NCBI GenBank assembly: GCA_947167125.1
Contig: CAMVGT010000009.1
Location: 1-55,121 of the forward strand
DNA length: 55,121 nt
Origin: an uncultured Erysipelotrichaceae bacterium
GTDB taxonomy: Bacteria > Bacillota_I > Bacilli_A > Erysipelotrichales > Erysipelotrichaceae
Direction of reading: 5' to 3'
Below the pieces are notes generated by a model. It had not been told where the DNA came from. It saw only the letters and a list, made by a program, of their open reading frames with translations, and ran no database searches. This document shows positions 1,124 to 47,458 of this stretch, piece after piece; within the stretch, counting starts at the first letter, position 1; each line of letters begins with the position of its first letter. The position numbers and the translations under genes were made by a program.

Positions 1124-2287
1124 TTATTCAGCCTCTTCCGCGTCAATCCGCTGTCTGCGCATCTGCAGTCTCGGGAAGATCAGATCCTTGTAAATATATG
1201 TAATGATTGCGGCAGCCGGGATCGCGAGAATGATGCCGGCGATGCCGAACAGCTCACCGCCGATGATGACCGAAGCCAGAATCAGTACAGAGGATACACC
1301 GAGCGAGCCGGAGAACAGACGGGGTTTGATGACATAGCCGTCCAGTGTCTGCAGCAGCAGTGTGAATATGATAAACATCAGTGCCTGAACCGGATTGTGG
1401 AGCACCAGCAGGAATCCGCCGAGCACGCCGCCGATAATCGGACCGAATGTCGGAATCAGGTTTGTGATTGCGACGATAAATGAAACCAATGAAGCGTAAG
1501 GAATATTGAATACAACCATGAACACTGCATTGCATAAACCGACGATCAGTGCGTCAATCAATGTATATCCGACATAGTGCGTCATGATGTCATCGCAGTG
1601 CGCCAGGAATGTGTTGTGTCTTTTAATGGTTTCTTCACTGACAAGAACACGGCGCAGACGGCTGACTTCATTCAGGATTCCTTCTTTTCCGGCAAGGAAA
1701 TAAACAGCGAAGATCAGACCGATCATCCATGACACCATGCTGGAGCCGAACTGGAAGGATTTCTTAGCAACGCCGGAAATGTAATCGGGAATATGATTGA
1801 TGAAGCCGTCAATCCAGTCGCTTGCCTTATCGGCAGCCGCGCTGAGATCGATATTGTATACAGCTGCCTTTGCCTCGAGTTCCTCGATCATTCTGTCAGC
1901 GCTGCGGATGTAATTTGAAAGGTTGGAGATCAATGTATTCAGCGATTCCGCCAGGGCAGGAATCAGGATGACCAGAATCAGAACCAGCACAAGAAGCACA
2001 AGCAGGATGGAAAGGATCACTGCACCGGTATGCGCTGTTTTCCGGTTTTTCAGGCCGCCAAAGACTTTCTTTTCAAAAAAGACACAGATCGGATTGATCA
2101 GGTAGGCAAGAATGATGCCGATTGTCATGGAAGAAATCGTTCCGATCAGAAAGGATATTCCGCCTGCCAGGACCGGCAGGTTCTGAATGAAATAATAGAA
2201 CAGGATCGCGATACAAAGTGCTGCGGCTGTTCCGATCCAGCTTTTTTCAAGAAGACGTTCCAGTTTTTCTCTTGTTTTTCTGTTCAT
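1124..2287 (-). CDS. AI-2E family transporter (PF01594-type permease)
   Basis: 387 residues with an N-terminal pair of membrane segments (about 17-65), another near 88-115, and a C-terminal cluster with the family signature region near residues 265-300 (ITNLIPTFGPIIGG). A GGAGG-like Shine-Dalgarno (CGGAGGC) precedes the ATG. The family contains exporters of AI-2, sodium/proton antiporters and many members of unknown substrate, so AI-2 export should not be assumed. First gene of a probable two-gene minus-strand operon with the macro-domain gene. Confidence 0.88.
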   Translation of the reverse strand: MNRKTREKLERLLEKSWIGTAAALCIAILFYYFIQNLPVLAGGISFLIGTISSMTIGIILAYLINPICVFFEKKVFGGLKNRKTAHTGAVILSILLVLLVLVLILVILIPALAESLNTLISNLSNYIRSADRMIEELEAKAAVYNIDLSAAADKASDWIDGFINHIPDYISGVAKKSFQFGSSMVSWMIGLIFAVYFLAGKEGILNEVSRLRRVLVSEETIKRHNTFLAHCDDIMTHYVGYTLIDALIVGLCNAVFMVVFNIPYASLVSFIVAITNLIPTFGPIIGGVLGGFLLVLHNPVQALMFIIFTLLLQTLDGYVIKPRLFSGSLGVSSVLILASVIIGGELFGIAGIILAIPAAAIITYIYKDLIFPRLQMRRQRIDAEEAE

Positions 2288-2307
2288 TGTCCGAGCCTCC
2301 GAACTTA

Positions 2308-2338
2308 ATTATATGATATTGTCCATCGCTGTGTTCAA
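2308..2338 (-). promoter_or_regulatory. Probable promoter of the permease-macro operon
   Basis: On the minus strand a perfect TATAAT (2313-2308) lies upstream of the Shine-Dalgarno. The best -35 candidate is TTGAAC (2338-2333) with a long 19-bp spacer, so the -35 is weak or activator-dependent. Confidence 0.4.
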
Positions 2339-2406
2339 AAACACGATGATATACAAAACCTTAAGATTGACGGGTGTATCTTAATATCTATTTTGCAGGA
2401 CTTGTT

Positions 2407-2449
2407 TATAATGTATACCGTTAAGGATATAAGAATGATTAACGGTATA
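2407..2449 (+). promoter_or_regulatory. -10 box and perfect 11-bp inverted repeat at the ABC transporter start
   Basis: TATAAT (2407-2412) is followed at once by TATACCGTTAA (2414-2424), a 14-nt spacer, and TTAACGGTATA (2439-2449). The arms are perfectly complementary, and the right arm includes the A of the ATG start. Transcription from this -10 would begin inside the left arm. The element is best read as a repressor operator over the transcription start; a mRNA hairpin that places the AAGGAT Shine-Dalgarno next to its loop is an alternative. Confidence 0.6.
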
Positions 2450-5400
2450 TGCTGCAGCTGAAAGATATCTGTAAAAAATATGTAACGGGAGATCTGTCTC
2501 AGACTGCCCTCGACCATGTATCGCTCAGCCTGCGTGACAATGAGTTTGTTGCCGTTCTCGGACCTTCAGGTTCAGGAAAGACCACAATGCTCAATATCAT
2601 CGGCGGACTGGACCGGTATGACAGCGGCGATCTGATTATCAATGATATCTCGACGAAAAAATACAAAGACCGTGACTGGGATTCCTACCGGAATCACACG
2701 GTCGGTTTTGTGTTTCAGAGCTACAACCTGATTCCCCATCAGACGATCCTTTCCAATGTTGAGCTTGCCCTTACCATTTCCGGTGTATCCGGAAGCGAAA
2801 GAAGCAGAAGGGCAAAGGAAGCACTGGAAAAAGTGGGACTCGGCGATCAGGTCCATAAAAAACCGAATCAGCTTTCCGGCGGACAGATGCAGAGAGTCGC
2901 AATCGCAAGAGCTCTTGTCAATGATCCGGATATTCTGCTGGCGGATGAACCGACCGGCGCTCTGGATACGGACACATCCGTACAGGTTATGGATCTGTTA
3001 AAAGAAGTCGCCAAAGACCGTCTGGTTGTCATGGTTACCCATAATCCGGAACTTGCCGAAGAATATGCGACCAGAATCGTCCGCTTAAAAGACGGAAAGA
3101 TCATTTCCGACAGCGATCCGTATCTGATTACGGAAGAACCGACAAGAACGGACAATCTCGGAAAATCCTCCATGTCGCTTCTGACTTCCCTGGCGTTAAG
3201 CTTTAACAACCTGCGCACAAAGAAGGCAAGAACATTTCTGGTGGCTTTTGCCGGTTCCATCGGTATCATCGGCATCGCACTGATTCTTTCTCTCTCCAAC
3301 GGCGTCAATGATTACATCCGCTCGATTGAGGAAGATACGCTTTCGGAATATCCGATCGCAATCCAGACCAGCGCTGTTTCACTGACGGCGGGAATAGAAA
3401 GAACCGACACAACGGAAGAAGTCAGTGAAGACAGGGTACAGGAAAGAAAAACGATTACCCGGATGTTCTCAGGTCTCAATACAAATGACCTGGTTTCACT
3501 GAAGGAGTTCCTGGAAACCCCGGAAAGCGAGATGGACACCTATGCCAAGGCAGTCGAATACAGCTATAACATCGTCCCTGAAATCTGGCAGGTTTATAAG
3601 GAAGACAAAGTCAGACAGGTCAATCCGGATGTGACGTTCAGTTCCATGGGACTTGGATACTCCGGTAGCTCCGCGGCGCTTTCCGCCTTTATGAGCACCG
3701 ATACATTCCATGCGATTCCGGATGATCCCGATCTCTACATGACACAGTATGAAGTCAAAGCCGGACGCTGGCCTGAGAAATTCAATGAATGCGTCCTTGT
3801 CCTTTCCGCAACCGGAAGAGTCACCGACTATACACTCTATGCAATGGGACTGCGCGATCCGGATGAGCTGAGTGAGATGCTGAAGGAACTGTCGGAAAAT
3901 GACAAGCTTATTACAAAAGACGACAGCCAGCTCATGGATTTTGACTATGAAGACTTCCTGAATGTGAAATTCAGTCTGATCTGTTCCGCCGACCGCTTTG
4001 TCTATGACAAGGAATTCGGCGTCTATACAGACAAAGGCGAAGATCAGAAGTTCATGAAGAACCTCGTGGAAAACGGAACCGAAGTCACCATCTGCGGCGT
4101 CGTTCAGCCGAAGGATACAGAATCCGCCGCAATGTTAATGACAGGTATCTGCTATCCGACGGAAATGACACAGTATGTAATCCGCCAGTCTCTGCAGAGC
4201 GATATCGTGCAGGCACAGCTGAAAGATCCGGATATCAATGTCATCACCGGCAAGCGGTTTGATGACCGTTCCGGCGGCGAATTCGATCTTTCCAAAATCT
4301 TCAGTGTGGATGAAAAGGCACTGCAGAATGCATTCAATTTCGATATGAGTTCCCTGAACAGCGGATTCACCGGAATCGATCTCTCCGATGCGGTCGATCT
4401 TTCCTCTTTGAATTTCGATGCTCCGGAAATGAATCTCGATCTTGCCTCAATGCTCAGCCAGCTGAAATTCGATGTGGATTCGAAGCAGCTGATGGACCTT
4501 GCGGAAAGCACGGTCAAAGGTTATACCGATTATTCAGCCAAAAAGGAAACAACCGACTGGGCAAAGCTGCCTGAAACAGCCGGTGAATATTTCAGAAGCG
4601 AAGAAGGAAGAGAGCTGCTGCGCACGGAAGTGAACAAGCTTCTTGATGAAAGCGGAATTTCCGCTGTCGATCCTGCCGTATTCAGAAATGCTCTGGTACA
4701 GGTGATGTCCGGCTATCCGCAGTGGCTTGTCGATCATGAAATCCCGACAGCGGATCCGGCTGTCTACGCGGAATATCTGGATGAATATCTGAATTCAGAA
4801 GACGGACAGAAACGGATCAGTGAAGCTGCCGCTTCCATCTCCGGCGCATTTGCGGATGCGGAAATCACAGAAGAACAGCTCACATCCATCGGCTCCGCGC
4901 TTTCCGAAGGCTATACAGCCTATGCGAAAGAAAAGGGAAACATTCCCGATCCTTCCTTATTCACTGATTCCGTGGATTCGTATCTGAATATGGAAAGCAC
5001 ACAGTCGGAACTGACATCCGGCATCGCAAAGGCAATGAATGCGGATGATCTTTCCCGTCAGATCAGCGGGATCATCAATACACAGACAGCAGGGTTTGCA
5101 GGAAATCTGCAGAACTCCATCGCAAACGGCGTACAGCAGATGATGTCGCAGATGGCATCCGGACTGACCTCGGCAATCTCACAGCAGCTGTCGGCTTTCT
5201 CCGATCTTTCCAATGTATTCTCCGTCAATGCCAACGCCTTCTCCGAAGCAATCAAGGTTAATATGACGGAAGAAGATCTGCAGCAGCTGATGAGTTCCAC
5301 CATGTCCACACGCAGCTATACCTATGATTCCAATCTGCGCTCCTTCGGATATGCGGATCTCAACAAGCCGTATACAATCTCGATCTATCCGAGAGACTTT

Positions 5401-5940
5401 GAATCCAAGGAATCCATTCTGAAAATCCTGGATCAGTACAACGCCAGAATGCGCGAAGAGGATGATACCAAGGTTATTGAATATACCGATGTGGTCGGAA
5501 CGCTCATGAGCGGCGTTACGAACATCGTCAACACTGTCAGCTATATCCTGATCGCCTTTGTCGCTGTATCCCTGATCGTTTCCTCGATCATGATCGGCAT
5601 CATCACATACATTTCCGTTCTTGAAAGAATCAAGGAAATCGGCATTCTCCGTGCCATCGGCGCTTCCAAACGGAACATTTCGGAAGTGTTCAATGCGGAA
5701 ACCTTCATCATCGGTCTCTTATCCGGACTGCTTGGCGTCGGTATCACATATCTGTTATTGATTCCGATCAATTCGGTCATTCATAACCTGACTGACAACT
5801 ACGCGATCAACGCGTTCCTGCCGGCCGGCGCTGCCGTGATTCTGGTTATGATCAGTGTCATCCTGACTCTGATCGGCGGTCTGATTCCTTCCAGACAGGC
5901 TGCACAGAAAGATCCGGTCATCGCGCTGAGATCAGAATAA
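2449..5940 (+). CDS. MacB/FtsX-type ABC transporter, ATPase and permease in one chain
   Basis: 1163 residues. Residues 1-225 are an ABC ATPase with Walker A GPSGSGKT (38-45), signature LSGGQ (142-146) and Walker B ILLADEP. A first membrane segment lies near 262-287, then about 730 residues of presumed extracellular domain rich in DLS/DAV helices, then three membrane segments near 1025-1150 with the FtsX/MacB motif ERIKEIGILRAIGAS. One ATPase fused to one permease suggests a homodimeric mechanotransmission transporter, as in MacB. These systems extrude peptides, toxins or lipoproteins or signal across the membrane; the substrate here is unknown. The ATG at 2449 is the only usable start, because an in-frame TAA lies at 2440. 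The Shine-Dalgarno is poor (AAGGAT about 21 nt upstream) and the upstream palindrome overlaps the start. Confidence 0.92.
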   Translation: MLQLKDICKKYVTGDLSQTALDHVSLSLRDNEFVAVLGPSGSGKTTMLNIIGGLDRYDSGDLIINDISTKKYKDRDWDSYRNHTVGFVFQSYNLIPHQTILSNVELALTISGVSGSERSRRAKEALEKVGLGDQVHKKPNQLSGGQMQRVAIARALVNDPDILLADEPTGALDTDTSVQVMDLLKEVAKDRLVVMVTHNPELAEEYATRIVRLKDGKIISDSDPYLITEEPTRTDNLGKSSMSLLTSLALSFNNLRTKKARTFLVAFAGSIGIIGIALILSLSNGVNDYIRSIEEDTLSEYPIAIQTSAVSLTAGIERTDTTEEVSEDRVQERKTITRMFSGLNTNDLVSLKEFLETPESEMDTYAKAVEYSYNIVPEIWQVYKEDKVRQVNPDVTFSSMGLGYSGSSAALSAFMSTDTFHAIPDDPDLYMTQYEVKAGRWPEKFNECVLVLSATGRVTDYTLYAMGLRDPDELSEMLKELSENDKLITKDDSQLMDFDYEDFLNVKFSLICSADRFVYDKEFGVYTDKGEDQKFMKNLVENGTEVTICGVVQPKDTESAAMLMTGICYPTEMTQYVIRQSLQSDIVQAQLKDPDINVITGKRFDDRSGGEFDLSKIFSVDEKALQNAFNFDMSSLNSGFTGIDLSDAVDLSSLNFDAPEMNLDLASMLSQLKFDVDSKQLMDLAESTVKGYTDYSAKKETTDWAKLPETAGEYFRSEEGRELLRTEVNKLLDESGISAVDPAVFRNALVQVMSGYPQWLVDHEIPTADPAVYAEYLDEYLNSEDGQKRISEAAASISGAFADAEITEEQLTSIGSALSEGYTAYAKEKGNIPDPSLFTDSVDSYLNMESTQSELTSGIAKAMNADDLSRQISGIINTQTAGFAGNLQNSIANGVQQMMSQMASGLTSAISQQLSAFSDLSNVFSVNANAFSEAIKVNMTEEDLQQLMSSTMSTRSYTYDSNLRSFGYADLNKPYTISIYPRDFESKESILKILDQYNARMREEDDTKVIEYTDVVGTLMSGVTNIVNTVSYILIAFVAVSLIVSSIMIGIITYISVLERIKEIGILRAIGASKRNISEVFNAETFIIGLLSGLLGVGITYLLLIPINSVIHNLTDNYAINAFLPAGAAVILVMISVILTLIGGLIPSRQAAQKDPVIALRSE

Positions 5941-5947
5941 ACAAATT

Positions 5948-5979
5948 TGCTCTGCGGACAATCCGGCAGAGCATTTTTT
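5948..5979 (+). terminator. Intrinsic terminator of the ABC transporter gene
   Basis: TGCTCTGC (5948-5955) pairs with GCAGAGCA (5966-5973), followed by six T. Confidence 0.9.
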
Positions 5980-6016
5980 GTTAAAATGGAACTGCTTGAA
6001 CAAAGGAGATTTAACT

Positions 6017-6472
6017 ATGCTTGAAGTTGGTATCAAGGCACCGGATTTTACATTGAATGATCAGAACGGAAATCCGCATTCTCTTTCCGATTACAGAGGA
6101 AAGAAAGTGATTCTGTATTTCTATCCGAAGGATCAGACAGCAGGCTGTATCAAGGAAGCCTGCTCGTTCCGCGACCGCATGCCGCAGTTTACTGAAAAAG
6201 GAGCTGTGATCCTCGGCATTTCCAAAGACACATCCGCATCCCATAAGAATTTTGAAGAAAAGCAGCAGCTTCCGTTTACGCTTCTTTCCGATCCGGACCA
6301 TCAGGTTCTTGAACTGTATGATGTCTGGGTGGAAAAGAATATGTACGGCAAGAAAGTAAAGGGAACTGAGCGTTCCACCTATCTGATTGATGAAAACGGC
6401 ATCATTGCCAAAGCCTATCAGAAGGTCAAGCCTGCAGACCATGCGGACAATGTGCTGCGTGATCTGGCATGA
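6017..6472 (+). CDS. bcp: Thioredoxin-dependent peroxiredoxin, BCP/PrxQ type
   Basis: 151 residues from ATG 6017, chosen because AAGGAG (6003-6008) sits at the right distance; a longer reading frame to 5978 would run into the upstream terminator. Thioredoxin-fold peroxidase that reduces H2O2 and organic peroxides with electrons from thioredoxin. It has the BCP pattern with peroxidatic and resolving cysteines five apart (GCIKEAC) followed by SFRD. The usual TPGC is here TAGC, a loss of the conserved proline beside the peroxidatic cysteine. The stop overlaps the start of yaaA by 4 nt, so the two peroxide-defence genes are translationally coupled. Confidence 0.93.
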   Translation: MLEVGIKAPDFTLNDQNGNPHSLSDYRGKKVILYFYPKDQTAGCIKEACSFRDRMPQFTEKGAVILGISKDTSASHKNFEEKQQLPFTLLSDPDHQVLELYDVWVEKNMYGKKVKGTERSTYLIDENGIIAKAYQKVKPADHADNVLRDLA

Positions 6473-7209
6473 AAATCATTCTCGCTCCCGCCAAGCAGAT
6501 GAAAACGGCGGATGATGATTTTTCCTGGCGCGATCTTCCGGTTTATCTTGAAAAGACGGAAATCCTGATGAAAAAGATGAAGCAGATGGATGACCGGCAG
6601 CTGAAGGCAATGTGGAGGTGTTCCGAACCGATTGCCTGGCAGAATGTGGAACGGCTGGAAGACATGGATCTGCGCGGCAGGCTTTCCCCGGCTGTCTTTT
6701 CCTATGACGGTCTTGCCTATAAGCATCTTTCCGTCGGGGCAATGACATGGGATCAGCTGGAATACCTGCAGAGCCATCTGCGGATTCTCAGCGGCTTCTA
6801 CGGCATTCTGAAGCCGTTTGACGGCATCACGCCTTACCGTCTGGAAATGCAGACAGTCATGCCTGACATCGGCGATCTCTATACCTTCTGGGGCGATCTG
6901 CTGTATCGGGAACTGATTGATGATGATCATCTGATCATCAACCTGGCTTCCAAAGAATATTCCAAAGCGGTTGAACCGTATCTGACTGATAAAGACAGAA
7001 TGATCACAATCGTATTTGAAAAGACTGCCGGCAAACCGGGTCTTGGATCCGCCATCATCAAAGTCGCCCGAGGAGAATTTACATACTGGATGGCGGAAAA
7101 CAATATTACGGATCCGGAAGATCTGAAATCTTTCAATGTTGGATTTACTTATCAGGAAGAGCGTTCAGATGATACGCATTTTGTCTTTACGGAAAACAAA
7201 AAAGCATGA
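6469..7209 (+). CDS. yaaA: YaaA family peroxide-stress protein
   Basis: 246 residues, full length for the family, beginning MKIILAPAKQM and containing the conserved LYTFWGD region near residues 142-148 and INLASKEYSKAV. In E. coli YaaA limits intracellular unincorporated iron and DNA damage during H2O2 stress; the biochemical activity may be DNA binding. It overlaps bcp by 4 nt and so is expressed with a peroxidase, which supports a peroxide-stress role in this organism. Confidence 0.93.
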   Translation: MKIILAPAKQMKTADDDFSWRDLPVYLEKTEILMKKMKQMDDRQLKAMWRCSEPIAWQNVERLEDMDLRGRLSPAVFSYDGLAYKHLSVGAMTWDQLEYLQSHLRILSGFYGILKPFDGITPYRLEMQTVMPDIGDLYTFWGDLLYRELIDDDHLIINLASKEYSKAVEPYLTDKDRMITIVFEKTAGKPGLGSAIIKVARGEFTYWMAENNITDPEDLKSFNVGFTYQEERSDDTHFVFTENKKA

Positions 7210-38199: not shown

Positions 38200-38218
38200 A
38201 TGACATTTGTCATATTAT
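38200..38218 (+). promoter_or_regulatory. tetR/lon-like palindrome and -10 box before the RpiR-like pair
   Basis: ATGACATTTGTCAT (38200-38213) has the same TGACA-N2-TGTCA core as the two tetR/lon operators. Its last T is the first base of TATTAT (38213-38218), a likely -10 nine bases before the ATG at 38228. A protein bound there would block this promoter. Confidence 0.55.
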
Positions 38219-38227
38219 AGGTGTACG

Positions 38228-38989
38228 ATGAATACATTAATATCCATCCTGCTTACAATCCTCAACAACATCAGAACGGATAACACAACCGGGGAAATTG
38301 TCAGACAGATCCTGCTTTCATATCAGGATTTTAAAAATATGAAGGCTTCCGATCTGGCGCAGAAGAGCTTCTGCAACACATCGACTGTCAACCGCTTCTG
38401 CAAGAGCCTCGGTTTTTCGTCGTTCAATGATATGAAAGCCTTCATGGTATCCAGCCGCAGCGTCAGACGCTCGCAGCTGGAACATCATATGGAAATCACA
38501 GACGCTGAAGCGATTCTGAACAGCATTTCCAATTACAATCAGGATTTCAGCATTGAACGGTTCAAGGATGAATGCGGACGGATCAACGAAATGATCGCGT
38601 CAGCGCCGCGTACGGTTGTGATCGGAGCAGTATTTCCGGAAGCACTGACCTTCCATTATCAGGAAGATATGCTGGAAATGGGAAAATGCGTTTATAATGC
38701 ACCGCTGTCAAGAAAACTGGAAGTCCCAAATGAAGACCCGGAGGCTGTGATCATCCTGATCACATTCACGGGAAGGCTGATCAATTACTGCCGCAGCGAA
38801 TATACGGAACTCTGCAGCAGATTCAGAAAAGTCATCCTGATTACCGGAAATGAGGAAATCGTTCCGGAGAGTGAGGAAGGACTGATTCTGCATCTTCCTT
38901 TTGCGGGTGATGATGAAGCGAGCAACGCGGTATTTGTCGAAATCATGAGATATCTGAAATACCGCTACTATATGGAATACAGGAAATAA
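38228..38989 (+). CDS. RpiR/MurR-family regulator with SIS-like domain (first of a pair)
   Basis: 253 residues from ATG 38228 (AGGTG 5 nt upstream). N-terminal RpiR HTH (KASDLAQKSFCNTSTVNRFCKSLGFSSFNDMKAFM, residues about 38-73) and a C-terminal SIS-like sugar-phosphate domain (about 100-253). Members sense phosphosugars and control sugar use genes. The second regulator follows after 4 nt and the giant esterase gene after that; this context suggests the pair controls that gene. The SIS glycine/serine signatures are weak. Confidence 0.85.
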   Translation: MNTLISILLTILNNIRTDNTTGEIVRQILLSYQDFKNMKASDLAQKSFCNTSTVNRFCKSLGFSSFNDMKAFMVSSRSVRRSQLEHHMEITDAEAILNSISNYNQDFSIERFKDECGRINEMIASAPRTVVIGAVFPEALTFHYQEDMLEMGKCVYNAPLSRKLEVPNEDPEAVIILITFTGRLINYCRSEYTELCSRFRKVILITGNEEIVPESEEGLILHLPFAGDDEASNAVFVEIMRYLKYRYYMEYRK

Positions 38990-38993
38990 TCAT

Positions 38994-39785
38994 ATGTATA
39001 TCGTTGAACACATTGAGAATCTGTACGCAAGCGCGAAATACGGCTCTGCCGATTATGAAATCGCGTGCTTTCTTCTGATGAATATCGAGCGCCTGGACAG
39101 AATTACTCTGACTGAGATTGCGAAGGCAACCGGATGTCCCAAGTCAACAGTCTCGGCCTTTTTCTCTGCCTACGGCCTCCCCGGCGGATTCAGCGCTTTT
39201 CAGCGTTCACTGCAGACCGAATTCGGCGTCAAGAATCTTGCGATCAGCCGCCATGTGGAAATGTGCAGAAGCCTGTCGGAAAAGATGCATGCCTTCCGGG
39301 CAGTGGATGAAAATGATATCAAGCGGCTGGCTGCAGCTGCATTGAACAGCGATAAATTCCTGATTGTCGGCACAGTCCGCTACCGGGATATCTTTTATAC
39401 ATTGATTTATTATCTGAGACTTCTCGGCATCTATGCCCGCTATATTCCCAATTCCGATCTCAATACAGCAGGGGATCTGTTTGAAACAGCCACTGCAGAC
39501 AAGAAGATTCTTTTCCTTGTGCCTTCAGATTCCTATACGGAATTTGTTTATAAAACTGAAAGCGCGCCGCAGTTTTCCGACTCCTACCGGAAGATCAGAG
39601 GAGAGCGCTATTACCTCTGCCGGGCGAATGATCCGTCTGCACCGAAAGAAAATGTATTCCTTTTTAATCCGGCATCCAATCCATATGAATGGATTCTGTC
39701 TATGATGGTTTTTTCTGCAGATCTGTTCACAGAATGTGCATCAAGGGGTAATATTGAATCAGCAAGATCTATCTACGTACTGTAA
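38994..39785 (+). CDS. RpiR-like regulator with degenerate SIS domain (second of a pair)
   Basis: 263 residues. N-terminal HTH of the RpiR type (ITLTEIAKATGCPKSTVSAFFSAYGLPGGFSAFQRSL, near 37-71) and a C-terminal domain with the SIS position and a Rossmann-like FLIVGTVRYRD, but without the serine-rich phosphosugar loop. It is clearly related to its neighbour in layout and poorly conserved in sequence. Two such genes in tandem may encode a heteromeric regulator. No terminator is evident before the esterase leader. Confidence 0.8.
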   Translation: MYIVEHIENLYASAKYGSADYEIACFLLMNIERLDRITLTEIAKATGCPKSTVSAFFSAYGLPGGFSAFQRSLQTEFGVKNLAISRHVEMCRSLSEKMHAFRAVDENDIKRLAAAALNSDKFLIVGTVRYRDIFYTLIYYLRLLGIYARYIPNSDLNTAGDLFETATADKKILFLVPSDSYTEFVYKTESAPQFSDSYRKIRGERYYLCRANDPSAPKENVFLFNPASNPYEWILSMMVFSADLFTECASRGNIESARSIYVL

Positions 39786-39975: not shown

Positions 39976-42900
39976 ATGTTAAATCTGAAGAAAATTGGAA
40001 TCAGCATGGTTGCTGCACTGATGGCTTTCTCATCCTCAGGAACAGTTGCATACGCAGAAGAAGCAGCTCCTGAAGAAGAAGTCGTTATTGAAGAAGCAGC
40101 CGAAGAAGTTTCCGAAACAGAAGAAATCGCAATCGAGGAAACTGAAGCTGAACCCGCAGCTGAAGTCGAAGCAGACGCAGAGATTACAGCTGAGGAAACT
40201 ACAGATGCTTATGAAGCCACATTTGCAGGTGTTGTAACAGATGCAGGTGAATATGTTGACTCAATGACCATTGATTTCGGTAATCAGACAATCTCTGGCC
40301 TTGATAAAGACACATTCAGTGTATATATGACATCGACAGTCGATTATGGCGCTGCCAAAGGTCAGCCGTATGCATATTTTGATGCATCGAAGCCGCTTCC
40401 TGTCGTTAAGACCGAAGTGGACGGCGGAACTGTCAAGGTCTATTTTGACCAGACAGCAGCTCCTGTACTGACATGGCTTGCAGAAGGCAGAAACTATCCC
40501 GCTATTCTTTCATTCACAATCGAACAGAACAAGCCGCTGCAGACAATTCTCGCTGACGGCAAGGCTCTCGACTTCACAGCTTCCTATTTCAGTGAAGCAA
40601 CAAGCTGGGCTGATCTTGAGAATGAAGAACTCGCTAAGTTTGAAAATGTCCAGGATGAAATCAACTATCAGTTCCACAAGGGAACAAATGATAAGCTGAT
40701 CGTCTTCTTCCATGGCAATGGCGAAGGCGACTTCCCGACAAAAGACACAAACAATAACGTTGCACAGATCCTCGCTAACAGAGGCGGTGCTGCTTGGGTA
40801 TCCGAGGCTCAGGAAGTCTTCGGTGATGCCAGCGTTATGGCATTCCAGGCACCGAACATGTGGTATTTCGCTATCAAAGACGGACTTCTGGCTCCGGTTT
40901 ATAACGAAATCCAGGCTGTAATTGCTGAAAACGGAATCAATCCGGATGAAGTATATCTGTCCGGCGCATCCGCTGGCGGATTCATGTCCACCAGAATGAT
41001 CATCGCTTACCCTGACCTGTTCAAGGCTGCAATGATCAACTGCCCTGCGCTCGATGCTGCAAACGCACGTTCAGATACAACAACAGCAATCCCGACAGAT
41101 TCTGAAATCGCATCCATCAAGGATTCCAAGACAGCGATCTGGCTGGTTCAGGGTGAAACAGACAGCTCCGTCGATCCTGAACTCTGCTCCAAGAGAATCT
41201 GGAACCTGATCACTGACGAGAGTGTCGTAACTGAAAAGACATATGAAGGAACAGCAGGAATCGCTTCCGGCTTCACAACATATGAAACAACAGACGGCAA
41301 GTACAAGCTCTCCCTGTATGAAACATTCGACCTGGGTGAAGTAACCGGTATCTCCGGCGAAAAGAGACTCGGCGGCAAACTGAAGTTCGCTGAAGACTAC
41401 GATCAGGACGGTGTTTTAACAGAAGTTAAGTACAGTGACCACTGGTCATGGATCTACACACTGAGAAACAACCCTGAAGCAGCAGATGGAAAGCACATCT
41501 GGAACTGGGCTGTTGACTATGAACCTGCAGTTGAAGTAACCGGCACACAGACTGTTGTCGTTACCGGCGATGACTGGGGTCCTGCAGTTGAAAAGACAGT
41601 TATCAAGACTGATGCTCCGATCGATGCTGAAAGCCTGATCCCTGCAAACTTCAAAGTTGTAGAAACCAAGGAAGTTCCGAACTGGGCTGCCGGCGGAGTA
41701 CCGACAACACAGACTGCAGAACGTAAGGTTCTCGATGTTTACGCATCCGATGAAAACGGAAACAAACTCGAAGGCGGCGAATATGTAGCAGTTGTTATGT
41801 ACATTTCCCCGAGCGAAGGTTCCCCGTTCTTCTATGAACTCGGCACCGGTTTCAACAGATGGGTTGACCAGTATAACCTGAAAGTAAATGCACAGGTCAC
41901 AACAGAAGGCAAGAAGGCTGAACTGACAGCTGACACAGACATTGACTTCTATGACAATGACATGTGGGTATCCGAAGTTGCTGACAAGTTCAATCAGGAT
42001 ACATTCACAGCTTCCGACAAGACACCGATCGTCTACGGCGAATTCGTTCCGAAAGACGGCGGACAGGACAAGGCTCTTGTTATCTGGCTGCACGGTGCAG
42101 GCGAAGGCACAAATAAGGGCAAGAACGATAACTACATCGATCTGCTCGGCAACGAAGTAACAGCATTTGCAGGCGAAGAATTCCAGAGCCTGTTCGGCGG
42201 CGCTTATGTGGTTACACCGCAGGCTCCGACAATGTGGATGGACGATGGCACAGGCGCATATCAGAGCGGCGACAAGGGTTCCGTATATGCTGATGCTCTC
42301 TTCGAATTCATTCAGAATTATGTAGATTCTCATCTCGATATTGACCCGAACAGAGTCATTATCGGCGGCTGCTCCAACGGCGGCTACATGACAATGGAAA
42401 TGATCCTGAAGCATCCGGATTACTTCTATAAGGCATTCCCGATCTGCGAAGCATTCGCTGATAAATTCATCACTGATGAACAGATCAAGGCACTGGCTGA
42501 GGGCGGCACGGGCATCTGGTTCACATTCGCAGACGCAGACACAACTGTAGATCCTACAGCAACATCCATCCCGACATACAACAGACTCGTTGAAGCTGGC
42601 GCAGACGTCCACAAGACACAGTGGGAAGATGTCCATGACACAACAGGCAGATTCGTTGATGCGGACGGCAATCCTTATGTCTATGCAGGACATTGGAGCT
42701 GGATCTACTTCGACAACAACTCTAACATCTGTGACGAACACGGCGAAAATGAGTGGGAGTGGCTCGCTGAAGTACCGGAAGGTGCAGGCCTGACAATCAG
42801 AGGCACTCAGAAGATCCGTATCACAGGCGATGACTGGGGCGCAGGCGTTGACCGTGCGATCCTCCACCTCACAAAGGAAATCGATCCGGAATCCGTCGCA

Positions 42901-45900
42901 AGAGATGACTTCACAGTTACAAATGCGTTCAGCGGCGGCAAAGCTACAGGACGTACAGTTCTCAAGGCTTACACATCCGATGCAGAAGGCAACAAGGTTG
43001 ACGAAGCTTCCGAATATGTCACAGTCGAACTGAGAATTACTCCGAGAGAAGGCAACCCGATTCTCTGGTCGATGCAGACATGGACAAACAGCTGGGCTGA
43101 TCCGTATGAACTGTTCGTGAATATCACAGACGGTCAGGAGATCAACACAGCTGACGGTCAGAAGGTCACAGGTATCGCTGTCAACACATCCTTCGATGTG
43201 AAAGACGTTGAAAACGAAGATGTTCTGATCCCGCAGCTGGATGGCTATGAATACAGCACATTCACAGCTAAAGACGGAATGGTAATTCCTTACGGACTCT
43301 ACGCTCCGGAAGAAGATGACAAGAAGAACGCTCTGATCATCTGGAACCACGGTGTCGGTGAAAGAGGAAGCGATCCTCGTATCGCTCTGCTCGGCAACGA
43401 AGTTACAGCTCTGAACGGAGAAGAATTCCAGGCACTGTTCGAAGGTGCTTACGTATTAGTACCGCAGACTCCTGCTTCCGGCAGAGGCAACATTGTCAAC
43501 GGCAAGATCGAACTGATCGAAAAGCTCGTTGCGGAAAATCCTGACATTGACCCGAACAGAGTCATCGTCGGCGGATGCTCCATGGGCGGCGGCCAGACAA
43601 TGAACATGGTTTATGCAAGAGCTGATCTCTTCGCTGCTGCATATCCTGTCTGCCCGGCTTCCACAAGCAGCCAGGTATCTGATGAACAGATCAACAACAT
43701 CGCAAATCTGCCGATCTGGTTCACACACTGCATCAATGACGGCACAGTCAACTACAAGAACACAACTGAAGCTCTGATCGAAAGACTCAAGGCTGCAGGA
43801 AATGAAAACGTCCACCTGTCCGCATTTGAAGATGTCCATGACACAACAGGCAGATTCAATGATCTGACAGAAGACGGAAGCGACTATGTCTATGACACAC
43901 ATTGGAGCTGGGTATACTTCGACAATAACGAATGCTATTGCGATGAATGCGGCGAAAATGAGTGGGAATGGCTCGCTAAGCAGAACAGAATGAATCAGAC
44001 AGAAGCTGGTGTCTATGTCACAGAGAATCCTGATGAAGACTCCAACTCCGGCTACATCGCTACATTCGTCTACAAGACAGATGAAGACCTCGACAAAGTC
44101 ACAGTATTCGGCGGCTTCCAGTTCTTCACTGAAGAAGAAGGCGACAGATATCTGACAGGCTACACAGGCGGTATCAAGGTTAAGGATGCTTACCAGGCTG
44201 CTGCTGATGAAGATGTCATGTATCCGTATGGCTACGATCCGGTTACCGGAAAGGGCCAGCTCGAATATGAACTTGAAGAAGTCATTGACGGCGTATGGAC
44301 AGTATCACTGCCTCTGCCTGCAGACCAGTGGTTCTATGCTTACAACATCACTAAGGACGGCGTCACAACTAAGGTTGAAGACCCGACAAATCCTTATACA
44401 CTGAACCCGAACAACGGCAACAACTCCGGCTGGTGCGTATTCTGGACAGGTACTCCTGAAGATGCTCTGGGCGAAATGGGCCGTACATATCCGAGAGAAG
44501 ACGAAAAGGTCGGTACATACGAATACAAGATGTACACCAACGTCAAGGGCGATGAAGCTCCGATCGTTGTCTATCTGCCTTATGGCTATGACAGCTCGAA
44601 GACATACCCTGTTCTCTACATCTCTCACGGCGGCGGCGGAAACGAAATGGATTGGCCGACAGTAGGCGCAGTCAAGAACATCTTCGATAACGCAATTGCC
44701 AATGGCGAAGTTGAGCCGACAATCGTTGTTTCCATGAACAACACAGAACTCGGCTGGAACTACGACAACATCCGTGACAACCTGCAGTATCACCTCTTCC
44801 CGTACATGGAAGAAAACTACAACGCATCCAAGGACGCTAAGGACAGAGCATTCGCTGGTCTCTCCATGGGCGGCCTGACTGCAACAAATATCTACACATA
44901 CGCTGCTGACCAGTTCGGCTATATCGGTATCTGGTCCGCAACAAACGGCAACCTCGATGTCAAGAGTGTTCCGAATAACGATTATCCGACAGTCATGCTC
45001 GGTGCCGGTAAGATGGACTTCGGTAACGGCGGATATCCTGGACTGATCGCGAAGGCTGCAGAAGCCGGACTCGACTGGTCTGATGATATGTACTACACCA
45101 ACGATGCCCACAACTGGTTCTGCTGGCCGGATCTGCTCTCCACATTCGCTTCCAAGTATCTGTGGAGTGATGCTGATAAGGCAGCTAACGTTGAGTATGA
45201 AGAGTCCGAACCTGGCGCAAACGTTGACGGCAAGACAGTCACATTCGTCTATGAAGACGATGATGCTAGAAATGCTGTTAAGGTTACTGTTCAGGGTAAC
45301 ATGCAGTGGTACAAGTGGGACGAAGTTGAAGGCTACGACGCAGCCGGCGACAACTCTCATATGCACAACTACGATGCTTATCACTATGAAGAAGGCATGT
45401 TCAACACCGGCTATGGTATCAACGGCGACACAGCAGTTTATGTACTGAGCCAGACAAGTGATGAACACTTCGAACTCGCTCTCGATCTCCCTGGCAACCT
45501 CTACTACTATGACTACACAGTCTACTATGCAGACGGTTCCAAGAAGACAATCAAAGACCCTGCAAATATGCCTGAAGCTAACCCGGCAAACGGCCATGAC
45601 GCAGGTCACAGCCTTGTATACGTCGGTTCTGCTGATGATACAACAGCTGGTCAGGAATACATCTATGAGAGAACAGATGACCAGAAGGGTTCCTATGAGT
45701 TCGTTCCGTACAAGGCAGTTGACGGCACAACTCAGTACCTCGGTGTCTATCTGCCGAAGGACTATGATGAAGCCAACACTTACAAAGTTGTCTATGTAAG
45801 CCATGGCGGCGGCGGACAGGAAAATGAATGGATGACAATCGGTGCTGTACCGAACATCCTCGACAACCTGATCGCTGACGGCGAAGTAGAACCTACAATC

Positions 45901-46929
45901 GCTGTCACAATGGACAACACATACTTCGGCTGGAACTTCGATACAATCGCTAAGAACTTCGAAGAAGCTATCTTCCCGTATATGGAAAAGAACTACTCCG
46001 TATCCGGCAGAGCTGAAGACAGAGCTCTCTGCGGTCTGTCCATGGGTTCCATGACAACATCCACAATCATGCTGAAGTATCCTGCACTGTTCGGATACTA
46101 CGGCGCATTCTCCGGCTCCAACATCATTGACGCTGCTGATGTAGATGAACTCGCTAAGAAGGTTATCTACCTCTCCGCTGGTGCAGTCGATATGGCTTAC
46201 TATCAGAGCAAGCCTGTAGGACCGGGTAAGACAGTCGATCTCGCTAACCTGCTGAAGGATCTCGGAATCAGCTTCAACAACGGAACTGATGAACCGGATG
46301 TACTCGGCGGTGCACACGACTGGGGCGTTTGGAGAGAATCCTTCTCGATCTTCGCTAAGGATTACCTCTGGACAGTAGAAGACGACAGATTCGTCGACGT
46401 CAGAGACGAGTCCAAGTACTACTACGATGCAGTATACTGGGCAAGAGACAACGGCATCACTAAGGGTTATGCTGAAGACAACACCTTCAGACCTGATGAA
46501 GGATGCACAAGAGCTCAGATGGTTACCTTCCTCTGGAGAATGGCAGGCAAGCCTGAACCTTCCGCTAACGCGAAGACATTCCCGGATGTCAAGTCCAACC
46601 AGTACTACTACAAGGCAGTCCTCTGGGCAGCTGAAAACGGCATTACAAAGGGCTACAAAGATGGTACCTTCAAGCCGGATGACACTTGCTTAAGAGAACA
46701 TGCAGTTACATTCCTGTACAGATTTGCTGGTCAGCCGGCACCGAAGACAACAGTGAACCCGTTCAATGATGTCACAGCGTCCGACTACTACTACAAGGCA
46801 ACTCTCTGGGCTAACGAAAACGGTATCGCTAAGGGCTACTCCACAGGCTCACATGCCGGCGGATTCGGTCCGAAGCTCGAATGCCTCAGAGAACACATCG
46901 TTACCTTCCTGTACAGATACGCCAAATAA
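39976..46929 (+). CDS. Giant SLH-anchored surface protein with five esterase domains
   Basis: 2317 residues, GGAGGAG before ATG. Signal peptide 1-28 (VAYA|EE), then an acidic linker to about 80. Three repeats of an Ig-like/beta domain plus a PHB-depolymerase-like alpha/beta hydrolase follow: beta 82-200, hydrolase 222-515 (GASAGG, Ser332; DHWSW, His489); beta 518-650, hydrolase 676-935 (GGCSNGG, Ser800; His906); beta 938-1060, hydrolase 1096-1335 (GGCSMGG, Ser1202; His1309). Two repeats of a CBM48/E-set-like domain plus a feruloyl-esterase/Fes-type domain come next: 1345-1490, 1500-1725 (GLSMGG, Ser1630; His1712) and 1740-1890, 1895-2134 (GLSMGS, Ser2022; His2114). Three SLH repeats (2139, 2202, 2263 to the end) anchor it to the wall. 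All five Ser and His are present. Likely removes acetyl or feruloyl groups from glycans; substrates unproven. Boundaries are approximate. Confidence 0.92.
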   Translation: MLNLKKIGISMVAALMAFSSSGTVAYAEEAAPEEEVVIEEAAEEVSETEEIAIEETEAEPAAEVEADAEITAEETTDAYEATFAGVVTDAGEYVDSMTIDFGNQTISGLDKDTFSVYMTSTVDYGAAKGQPYAYFDASKPLPVVKTEVDGGTVKVYFDQTAAPVLTWLAEGRNYPAILSFTIEQNKPLQTILADGKALDFTASYFSEATSWADLENEELAKFENVQDEINYQFHKGTNDKLIVFFHGNGEGDFPTKDTNNNVAQILANRGGAAWVSEAQEVFGDASVMAFQAPNMWYFAIKDGLLAPVYNEIQAVIAENGINPDEVYLSGASAGGFMSTRMIIAYPDLFKAAMINCPALDAANARSDTTTAIPTDSEIASIKDSKTAIWLVQGETDSSVDPELCSKRIWNLITDESVVTEKTYEGTAGIASGFTTYETTDGKYKLSLYETFDLGEVTGISGEKRLGGKLKFAEDYDQDGVLTEVKYSDHWSWIYTLRNNPEAADGKHIWNWAVDYEPAVEVTGTQTVVVTGDDWGPAVEKTVIKTDAPIDAESLIPANFKVVETKEVPNWAAGGVPTTQTAERKVLDVYASDENGNKLEGGEYVAVVMYISPSEGSPFFYELGTGFNRWVDQYNLKVNAQVTTEGKKAELTADTDIDFYDNDMWVSEVADKFNQDTFTASDKTPIVYGEFVPKDGGQDKALVIWLHGAGEGTNKGKNDNYIDLLGNEVTAFAGEEFQSLFGGAYVVTPQAPTMWMDDGTGAYQSGDKGSVYADALFEFIQNYVDSHLDIDPNRVIIGGCSNGGYMTMEMILKHPDYFYKAFPICEAFADKFITDEQIKALAEGGTGIWFTFADADTTVDPTATSIPTYNRLVEAGADVHKTQWEDVHDTTGRFVDADGNPYVYAGHWSWIYFDNNSNICDEHGENEWEWLAEVPEGAGLTIRGTQKIRITGDDWGAGVDRAILHLTKEIDPESVARDDFTVTNAFSGGKATGRTVLKAYTSDAEGNKVDEASEYVTVELRITPREGNPILWSMQTWTNSWADPYELFVNITDGQEINTADGQKVTGIAVNTSFDVKDVENEDVLIPQLDGYEYSTFTAKDGMVIPYGLYAPEEDDKKNALIIWNHGVGERGSDPRIALLGNEVTALNGEEFQALFEGAYVLVPQTPASGRGNIVNGKIELIEKLVAENPDIDPNRVIVGGCSMGGGQTMNMVYARADLFAAAYPVCPASTSSQVSDEQINNIANLPIWFTHCINDGTVNYKNTTEALIERLKAAGNENVHLSAFEDVHDTTGRFNDLTEDGSDYVYDTHWSWVYFDNNECYCDECGENEWEWLAKQNRMNQTEAGVYVTENPDEDSNSGYIATFVYKTDEDLDKVTVFGGFQFFTEEEGDRYLTGYTGGIKVKDAYQAAADEDVMYPYGYDPVTGKGQLEYELEEVIDGVWTVSLPLPADQWFYAYNITKDGVTTKVEDPTNPYTLNPNNGNNSGWCVFWTGTPEDALGEMGRTYPREDEKVGTYEYKMYTNVKGDEAPIVVYLPYGYDSSKTYPVLYISHGGGGNEMDWPTVGAVKNIFDNAIANGEVEPTIVVSMNNTELGWNYDNIRDNLQYHLFPYMEENYNASKDAKDRAFAGLSMGGLTATNIYTYAADQFGYIGIWSATNGNLDVKSVPNNDYPTVMLGAGKMDFGNGGYPGLIAKAAEAGLDWSDDMYYTNDAHNWFCWPDLLSTFASKYLWSDADKAANVEYEESEPGANVDGKTVTFVYEDDDARNAVKVTVQGNMQWYKWDEVEGYDAAGDNSHMHNYDAYHYEEGMFNTGYGINGDTAVYVLSQTSDEHFELALDLPGNLYYYDYTVYYADGSKKTIKDPANMPEANPANGHDAGHSLVYVGSADDTTAGQEYIYERTDDQKGSYEFVPYKAVDGTTQYLGVYLPKDYDEANTYKVVYVSHGGGGQENEWMTIGAVPNILDNLIADGEVEPTIAVTMDNTYFGWNFDTIAKNFEEAIFPYMEKNYSVSGRAEDRALCGLSMGSMTTSTIMLKYPALFGYYGAFSGSNIIDAADVDELAKKVIYLSAGAVDMAYYQSKPVGPGKTVDLANLLKDLGISFNNGTDEPDVLGGAHDWGVWRESFSIFAKDYLWTVEDDRFVDVRDESKYYYDAVYWARDNGITKGYAEDNTFRPDEGCTRAQMVTFLWRMAGKPEPSANAKTFPDVKSNQYYYKAVLWAAENGITKGYKDGTFKPDDTCLREHAVTFLYRFAGQPAPKTTVNPFNDVTASDYYYKATLWANENGIAKGYSTGSHAGGFGPKLECLREHIVTFLYRYAK

Positions 46930-46963: not shown

Positions 46964-46993
46964 AAGCCGTCCGCAGAAATGCGGGCGGCTTTT
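46964..46993 (+). terminator. Intrinsic terminator of the giant esterase gene
   Basis: AAGCCGTCCGC (46964-46974), 6-nt loop, GCGGGCGGCTT (46981-46991) with one G-U pair, then TTTT. Confidence 0.93.
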
Positions 46994-47019
46994 CAGAGAA
47001 AAGGATTCAAAACGGAAAG

Positions 47020-47046
47020 AAGGCAGGTCCTGCCTGAACCTGCCTT
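47020..47046 (+). repeat. GGCAGG/CCTGCC hairpin before a lipoprotein gene
   Basis: AAGGCAGGT (47020-47028) pairs with ACCTGCCTT (47038-47046). A second CCTGCC inside the loop (47029-47034) gives a direct repeat and a competing pairing. There is no T-run, so it is not an obvious terminator. Confidence 0.5.
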
Positions 47047-47083
47047 CACCCGTTTCAGTCAAACCAATATCGGGAGTTACATT

Positions 47084-47458
47084 ATGAAGAAATTATTATC
47101 ACATTTATTTTCTCTTGTTCTGGTTCTTGTTCTGCTGACAGCTGCAGGCTGCAGCAGTTCCAATGTGACGGGTGAAGCACTTGCAGGGGAATATGATCTG
47201 GTTTCTATGCATGAACCTGCTGCAGAAGGAAAAGAACCTGAAACATGGTATGCTGCGGATCAGGGAATCACAGGTGTTCTGACACTGAAGGAAGACGGCA
47301 CCGGCGTATATGAATTTATGTATCAGACGATTGAACTGACATATGATACGGATAAGAAAACAATCTCCTATGATGGATATGAGGATCCGTTTACATATAA
47401 AGACGGTGTGCTTGAATGGACGATGGGAGAAAATGTTCACTCATTCCAGAAACGATAA
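47084..47458 (+). CDS. Small lipoprotein, unknown function
   Basis: 124 residues from ATG 47084 (GGGAG 47072-47076); the frame is open further upstream but that part covers the hairpin. MKKLLSHLFSLVLVLVLLTAAGC is a lipoprotein signal with lipobox AAGC. The mature part has the pattern GEALAGEYDLVSM then LTLKEDGTGVYEF and a final EWTMGENVHSFQKR, typical of short lipocalin-like domains in Bacillota. Possibly a small surface lipid- or peptide-binding protein; no experimental guide. Confidence 0.85.
   Translation: MKKLLSHLFSLVLVLVLLTAAGCSSSNVTGEALAGEYDLVSMHEPAAEGKEPETWYAADQGITGVLTLKEDGTGVYEFMYQTIELTYDTDKKTISYDGYEDPFTYKDGVLEWTMGENVHSFQKR

Follow-up and report, generated by a model that had tools for sequence, protein, structure and literature searches.

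The window analysed here, a 55,121-nucleotide stretch of contig CAMVGT010000009.1 from an uncultured Erysipelotrichaceae bacterium, contains one gene whose product combines five esterase domains with three SLH repeats, and this raises the question of how such a chain came together and what so many ester-cutting sites might do at a cell surface. We believe, with a probability of roughly 0.55, that the product is exported and kept on the wall through its SLH repeats, and that its five acyl-esterase lineages would deacylate plant cell-wall oligo- and polysaccharides before their uptake.

The gene is a single open reading frame of 2317 aa with an ATG start, in which the terminal stop is the only one in frame, against 12 to 187 stops in each of the five alternative frames of these bases. 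A preliminary description had proposed the order signal peptide, acidic linker, three plus two units of beta domain and hydrolase, and three SLH repeats. This layout is borne out by the reading frame and by Pfam and PDB matches, and the features, with the two upstream neighbours, are as follows (D1 to D5, the five units):

38207..38989, plus strand, RpiR-family regulator, upstream context (Pfam scan)
38994..39785, plus strand, second upstream open reading frame, RpiR-like by eye (no Pfam match at 1e-5)
39976..46929, plus strand, whole gene, multi-esterase surface protein, 2317 aa
39976..40056, plus strand, signal-peptide-like N-terminus, aa 1-27, ending ...VAYA|EE (sequence read by eye)
40057..40203, plus strand, acidic linker, aa 28-76 (residue count)
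40204..40590, plus strand, D1 N-terminal Ig-like domain, aa 77-205, diverged EstA_Ig_like (D1-type relatives reach PF18435)
40591..41526, plus strand, D1 EstA-type alpha/beta-hydrolase, aa 206-517, triad S332-D396-H489 (Pfam, PDB match, alignment, tree)
41533..41940, plus strand, D2 EstA_Ig_like domain, aa 520-655 (PF18435)
41941..42771, plus strand, D2 EstA-type hydrolase, aa 656-932, triad S800-D855-H906 (Pfam, PDB match, alignment, tree)
42781..43200, plus strand, D3 EstA_Ig_like domain, aa 936-1075 (PF18435, own-genome match 42826-43167)
43201..43989, plus strand, D3 EstA-type hydrolase, aa 1076-1338, triad S1202-D1255-H1309 (Pfam, 3doh match over residues 958-1277, alignment, tree)
43993..44475, plus strand, D4 CBM48/isoamylase-N-like E-set domain, aa 1340-1500 (phmmer alignment through the CBM48-CE1 structure 6rzo)
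44476..45201, plus strand, D4 CE1-type hydrolase, aa 1501-1742, triad S1630-D1681-H1712 (Pfam, PDB match, alignment, tree)
45208..45645, plus strand, D5 E-set domain, aa 1745-1890 (similarity to the D4 E-set)
45646..46374, plus strand, D5 CE1-type hydrolase, aa 1891-2133, triad S2022-D2072-H2114 (PDB match, PF00756, alignment, tree)
46381..46926, plus strand, three SLH repeats, aa 2136-2317 (Pfam)

The putative signal peptide was read by eye from the pattern KK...AYA, and the linker behind it holds 22 D/E among 49 residues and no K/R. At the other end, the three SLH anchors named previously all score above the Pfam cut-off of 20.8 bits (43.3, 48.4 and 21.6). Promoter and terminator scans gave nothing usable. 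Two long minus-strand frames are open within the esterase gene, at 41446-43350 (634 aa) and 44305-46317 (670 aa), and are probably by-products of its codon use. Right behind the gene, an open reading frame called from 46979 (46979-47458) reads by eye as a small lipoprotein, and its true start, equally judged by eye, is probably an internal ATG (MKKLLSHLF...AAGCSSS).

On the basis of Pfam, PDB and BLAST comparisons, the hydrolases fall into two families, as had been proposed, EstA-type for D1 to D3 and CE1-type for D4 and D5. Pfam recognized PF00756 (Esterase), two PF18435 (EstA_Ig_like) stretches and three SLH stretches in the protein, and the first three hydrolases matched Peptidase_S9/Abhydrolase_2. 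In phmmer searches, D1 aligned with Thermotoga maritima EstA (3doh) at 2.1e-8, and D2 and D3 also aligned with this structure. EstA shares with these units an Ig-like N-terminal domain joined to an alpha/beta-hydrolase, but has one unit per protein; its natural substrate is, to our knowledge, unknown. D4 and D5 aligned with the XynZ feruloyl esterase (1jjf/1jt2) and with the CBM48-CE1 esterases 6rzo, 6mot and 6ne9, and PF00756 together with the alignment to known CE1 feruloyl esterases shows the fold and triad of carbohydrate esterase family 1 (CE1). When the protein's own segments were compared by BLAST, the hydrolases of D2 and D3 were 47% identical and those of D4 and D5 42%, while that of D1 was more distant (27% with D2, 26% with D3). 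Across the groups the best match, D3 with D5, had an E value of only 0.01, which, set against the identities within groups, argues for three EstA-type and two CE1-type units. Among the small beta domains, PF18435 recognizes those of D2 and D3 directly, while that of D1 gave no PF18435 match in the window protein and is reached solely through D1-type relatives that pass the cut-off (for example G050:C1:487429, E 4.8e-9, placed in the D1 clade of the tree). Pfam reported no CBM48 family in the window protein, and the D5 E-set resembles that of D4 by BLAST (29-30% identity, E 1.2e-12). A structure model of D1 built from a four-row alignment was poor (pLDDT 56, pTM 0.51); Foldseek returned 3doh as its top match (E 3.6e-12), which, with such a model and TM-scores of 0.31-0.36, lends weak support.

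The nucleophile positions (332, 800, 1202, 1630 and 2022) are all serine and the candidate histidine positions (489, 906, 1309, 1712 and 2114) all histidine, exactly as first listed, and the acid residues D396, D855, D1255, D1681 and D2072 can now be added. An oxyanion-hole HG motif stands ahead of every nucleophile in all five domains, and S1630 and S2022 align by phmmer with the serine that is Ala in 1jt2. We aligned domains of at least 200 aa from the fetched loci, a set gathered through profiles seeded from this family and thus not a random sample. In the EstA-type alignment (n=95) the serine and the aspartate (D396, D855, D1255) were present in 95/95 and the histidine in 94/95, with one gap, and in the CE1-type alignment (n=21) the serine, the aspartate (D1681, D2072) and the histidine were each present in 21/21. 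This conservation extends to proteins in which a D1-type domain is the sole esterase. A missing acid residue or oxyanion hole was looked for and not seen, in keeping with the earlier remark that no copy is visibly dead, and the five ester-cutting domains are apparently intact.

To get insight into the origin of the domains, we compared them with their relatives in two trees, a quick search for the EstA type (95 domains, SH-aLRT support only, several long branches flagged) and a careful search for the CE1 type (21 rows). The clade that contains D1 (19 rows, support 100) comprises, from two families, both stand-alone D1 proteins and fusions that begin with D1. The nearest group of D2 consists of domains of the genus (7 rows, support 100), and a looser group (18 rows, support 84) includes the second domain of two-esterase proteins from another family (f2). 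D3 was grouped with two domains of the genome G221 (3 rows, support 99) and, weakly (82-84), with the domain that comes first in those f2 proteins. The D3-like domain or domains come first and a D2-like domain last in six f2 pairs (L016, L018, L031, L033, L087 and L108) and in the three-esterase protein L107, and the order is D2 then D3 in the window protein and in the G221 protein on contig C79 (G221:C79). Misfits to the D3-like/D2-like pattern are L109, L036 and L004, with both domains elsewhere in the tree, and L035, with its first domain; L084, which joins D1 to a D2-like domain, also falls outside it. In the CE1 tree, D4 and D5 are in separate clades (96/97 with 11 rows versus 87/81 with 6 rows). 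The trees thus suggest, with moderate support in places, that the five catalytic domains represent five lineages also found in other proteins of the order, and we read the window protein as a probable assortment of distinct old enzymes joined by shuffling. A recent tandem duplication as the source of all five was rejected, D4 and D5 being 43% identical and in different CE1 clades, and D1, D2 and D3 lying in different EstA-type clades. Such a duplication does hold for another G221 protein, on contig C83 (G221:C83), whose CE1 pairs are 47 to 98% identical.

In similarity searches, with the own genome counted throughout, 44/60 close relatives had a match at E <=1e-3. At E <=1e-20 a match was found in at least 44/272 genomes of the family and in at least 15/392 genomes of a phylum draw (12 of the same order and 3 of the same class), both being lower bounds because at most two candidates were scored per genome; no match at this threshold lay outside the class in that draw. 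PF18435 occurred in 52/294 genomes of the order. Among 114 hand-picked open reading frames with any domain profile match, whose shares are not rates, 23 had at least two esterase matches longer than 150 aa, seven at least three and two at least five, namely the window protein with five and G221:C83 with seven. The latter (L106, 337-9945, plus strand, 3203 aa), from the same genus, resembles the window protein in its CE1 units and SLH repeats and differs in its set of domains, six of the CE1 type and one of the EstA type. The 98% identity between two of these CE1 domains points to amplification in recent times, in contrast to the window protein. The closer counterpart is G221:C79, of the same genus, which reads D1, metallo-beta-lactamase, hydrolase, D2, D3, E-set start, a 100-N gap, CE1 and SLH. 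It is 74% identical to the window protein over residues 519-1351, and its CE1 groups with D5 (84/85 in the CE1 tree). It shares D1, D2, D3, the E-set start, CE1 and SLH with the window protein, and differs in the metallo-beta-lactamase and additional hydrolase between D1 and D2 and in the scaffold gap. G233:C40, with CE1 and SLH, was considered as a further D5-SLH case and rejected, since the CE1 tree places its CE1 with that of a paralog in the window genome (G000) on contig C59.

The anchors vary among the genomes, with SLH ends in the window genome, G221 and G233, choline-binding repeats in G014 (over the Pfam cut-off in L026, below it in L027), an LPXTG-type end in G057, DUF4214 in G004 and, by eye, sortase-like tails in several f2 proteins. 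In six multi-domain proteins, a metallo-beta-lactamase is fused to esterase-like hydrolases:

1238-7093, plus strand, metallo-beta-lactamase fusion L025 (G000:C59)
2766-6530, plus strand, metallo-beta-lactamase fusion L039
2548-6747, minus strand, metallo-beta-lactamase fusion L029
245-7102, plus strand, metallo-beta-lactamase fusion L103
3-4847, minus strand, metallo-beta-lactamase fusion L161
1878-6500, plus strand, metallo-beta-lactamase fusion L169

L025, the C59 paralog, has at least 1952 aa with a metallo-beta-lactamase, a hydrolase, two CE1 and SLH, and ends at the contig edge; the nearest PDB sequence match of its metallo-beta-lactamase is hydroxyacylglutathione hydrolase (E 2.6e-6). 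In f2, the EstA-type genes of G037 have alpha-N-acetylglucosaminidase (NAGLU), GH3 and PTS genes nearby, and those of G050 an alkyl-sulfatase-like metallo-beta-lactamase, PTS and a restriction gene, so that the neighbours in these two genomes (10 proteins, two stretches) are of mixed context with no clear substrate. The varied combinations of these modules among relatives suggest a surface system of modular build, which may strip acyl groups off complex glycans.

Several multicatalytic carbohydrate esterases bear comparison with the window protein. Fll4 of Flavimarina sp. Hel_I_48 combines a CE6 with two putative CE1 domains, and its authors present it as the first enzyme described to contain three distinct esterase domains (PMC12247016); it was also the only characterized enzyme with more than two that we found in open-licence PMC full text. 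According to the excerpted text of that paper, its third esterase domain was inactive on every substrate studied, and 'CE1' domains like those of Fll4 may fall in unclassified CE families (PMC12247016). The two proteins are alike in having several esterase domains per chain, some of the CE1 type, and Fll4 has a central domain called CBM48 by one tool, as well as acetylxylan and feruloyl esterase activity, which the window protein may share. They differ in that Fll4 has three esterase domains against five, includes a CE6, not seen in the window protein, and sits in a xylan PUL with SLH unmentioned in the excerpted description. DmCE1B of Dysgonomonas mossii is a CE1-CBM48-CE1 protein whose C-terminal CE1 retains its triad and shows minimal activity on model substrates; in its structure the CBM48 adjoins the active-site groove, and no binding to any tested glycan was seen for the CBM48 domains of two CE1 enzymes, as excerpted from PMC8040265. 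CE6-CE1 fusions are known from Bacteroides ovatus and Flavobacterium johnsoniae, and the full-length B. ovatus protein boosted xylanase more than its separated domains did (PMC7110780, in excerpt), an analogy by which esterases may work better in one chain. DmCE1B and these fusions resemble the window protein as fused carbohydrate esterases, DmCE1B also in its CBM48-CE1 unit, and differ, as far as the excerpts describe them, in having two esterase domains and a Bacteroidetes PUL setting. No SLH-anchored protein of such a layout appeared among the titles and abstract openings listed in searches of open-licence PMC papers. The window protein would be a variant of the multicatalytic carbohydrate esterases, and the five-esterase, SLH-anchored chain itself may be new, as judged from the papers listed. 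The preliminary description, too, knew of no protein with this layout, but the near-ortholog and the multi-esterase proteins of the genus make it less isolated than was thought.

Of the ten window neighbours scanned, three gave no match and the others were TrkH and TrkA (Trk potassium uptake), Lon, RpiR, IspD, a peptidase and a small exporter, with no glycoside hydrolase among them. SLH matches occurred in 25 open reading frames of the genome, and 24 of these (all except that on C55) were scanned for domains, at least three of them in part. Esterase-like hydrolases were present in three (on C9, C59 and C5) and subtilases in three, the surface set also holds LRR proteins, and no named glycoside hydrolase family was found in the 24. 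An SLH-anchored right-handed beta-helix protein with no specific family match (L184, G000:C33, 1835-4363, plus strand) might act on polysaccharide. Classically, SLH domains bind a pyruvylated secondary wall polymer made with CsaB. Among SLH genes of this genome lies L114 (G000:C1, 5421-7286, minus strand), which encodes a 621-aa protein with a polysaccharide pyruvyl transferase (PS_pyruv_trans) domain; it is weakly CsaB-like (31.6 bits against a cut-off of 213) and a possible wall-polymer modifier. GH10 and GH11 were not found in the genome, an absence that is provisional since the draft, in 130 contigs, is an estimated 94% complete. Over their cut-offs there were five GH43 matches and one of GH28, as well as 13 of PF00756, four of which belong to the window protein and the C59 paralog. 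No signal peptide was seen by eye in the three strongest GH43 and the GH28, and these four, the ones whose sequences were read, look cytoplasmic. A xylan-degradation cluster was accordingly set aside as an explanation.

In the reading that we favour, the protein would be exported and then attached to the wall through its SLH repeats. Each unit pairs a hydrolase with a small beta domain and would provide one of five separate serine acyl-esterase sites, and several acyl decorations (acetyl, feruloyl or related) might be removed at the cell surface from plant cell-wall oligo- and polysaccharides. The bared oligosaccharides may then enter the cell, where GH43/GH28-type enzymes would cut them, and different specificities on one tether could help where several decorations stand side by side. 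Failure to find GH10 and GH11, together with cytoplasmic-looking GH43 and GH28, fits side-chain stripping before oligosaccharide uptake, and also means that a role on xylan is not backed by these xylanases. The investment in esterases, seen in the 13 PF00756 matches and in 3/24 scanned SLH proteins, speaks for this role, against which stand the lack of a glycoside hydrolase among the ten scanned window neighbours, the SLH-anchored beta-helix protein, the weak CsaB similarity of L114 and the failure of CBM48 domains in two CE1 enzymes to bind glycans. The product had been suggested as a possible processive or multi-specific deacylase; the second term gains support from the assignment of the five domains to different lineages and is our best reading of the sequence, while the first was dropped, as no sequence feature speaks for processivity.

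The targets might instead be host or microbial glycans, such as mucin O-acetyl esters or the capsule or wall of the bacterium or its neighbours. We consider this unlikely: GH10 and GH11 not being found, the EstA-type genes near alpha-N-acetylglucosaminidase and GH3 in G037 (another family of the same order) and the subtilases and LRR proteins of the surface set would agree with it, but the genome has GH43 and GH28, the CE1 relatives of known structure that come closest are plant feruloyl/acetylxylan esterases, and the Pfam and NCBIfam matches included no sialate-esterase family. It is more improbable still that polyesters or small phenolic esters are cut, in the manner of PHB/PHA depolymerases or of enzymes on chlorogenate- or tannin-like compounds. 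The whole protein does reach 123 bits in three stretches with a PHA depolymerase type 1 model, there is an Esterase_PHB match, and a promiscuous PHB depolymerase ranked fifth in the D1 fold search; yet all scores are under the curated cut-offs (123 vs 150 and 99 vs 107.85 for the whole protein in NCBIfam, and 22.1 vs 23), and the D1 model behind the fold search is the poor one (pLDDT 56). Moreover, we know of no PHA depolymerase designed as five tethered sites of two families.

A different doubt concerns the number of working sites, since only one or two domains might be active and the others kept as binding or scaffold modules for size and reach. The inactive third domain of Fll4 (PMC12247016, in excerpt) and the minimally active C-terminal CE1 of DmCE1B (PMC8040265, in excerpt) are precedents for this, and intact triads do not prove activity; the triads are nevertheless kept in all five domains and across the aligned relatives, D1-only proteins included, and we regard this alternative, too, as unlikely. 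An assembly artefact, a chimera in which separate esterase genes became one long frame, is very improbable indeed. The genome is a draft in 130 contigs and relatives encode the modules separately, but the independent genome G221 repeats, on C79, the D2-D3 order with an E-set start directly behind D3, as well as a D5-type CE1 followed by SLH, even though the 100-N gap separates its two stretches. This recurrence of both junctions, together with one clean frame in the window, argues against a chimera.

Tentatively, the order could be running a modular surface 'poly-esterase' system, in which two to seven ester hydrolases from at least five old lineages are shuffled in order, sometimes joined to a metallo-beta-lactamase, and given an anchor per species (SLH, sortase-type or choline-binding). 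This would be a single-chain esterase counterpart of the cellulosome, here in a cell where GH10 and GH11 were not found, that might strip several acyl decorations at once, with the backbone left to be cut in the cytoplasm or by neighbours. Ester decorations restrict microbial access to plant fibre. Esterase fusions are also of applied interest. The five-esterase chain and its seven-esterase relative offer a direct test of synergy by esterase fusion, and also of whether a bacterium profits from de-esterification without surface backbone hydrolases of its own.
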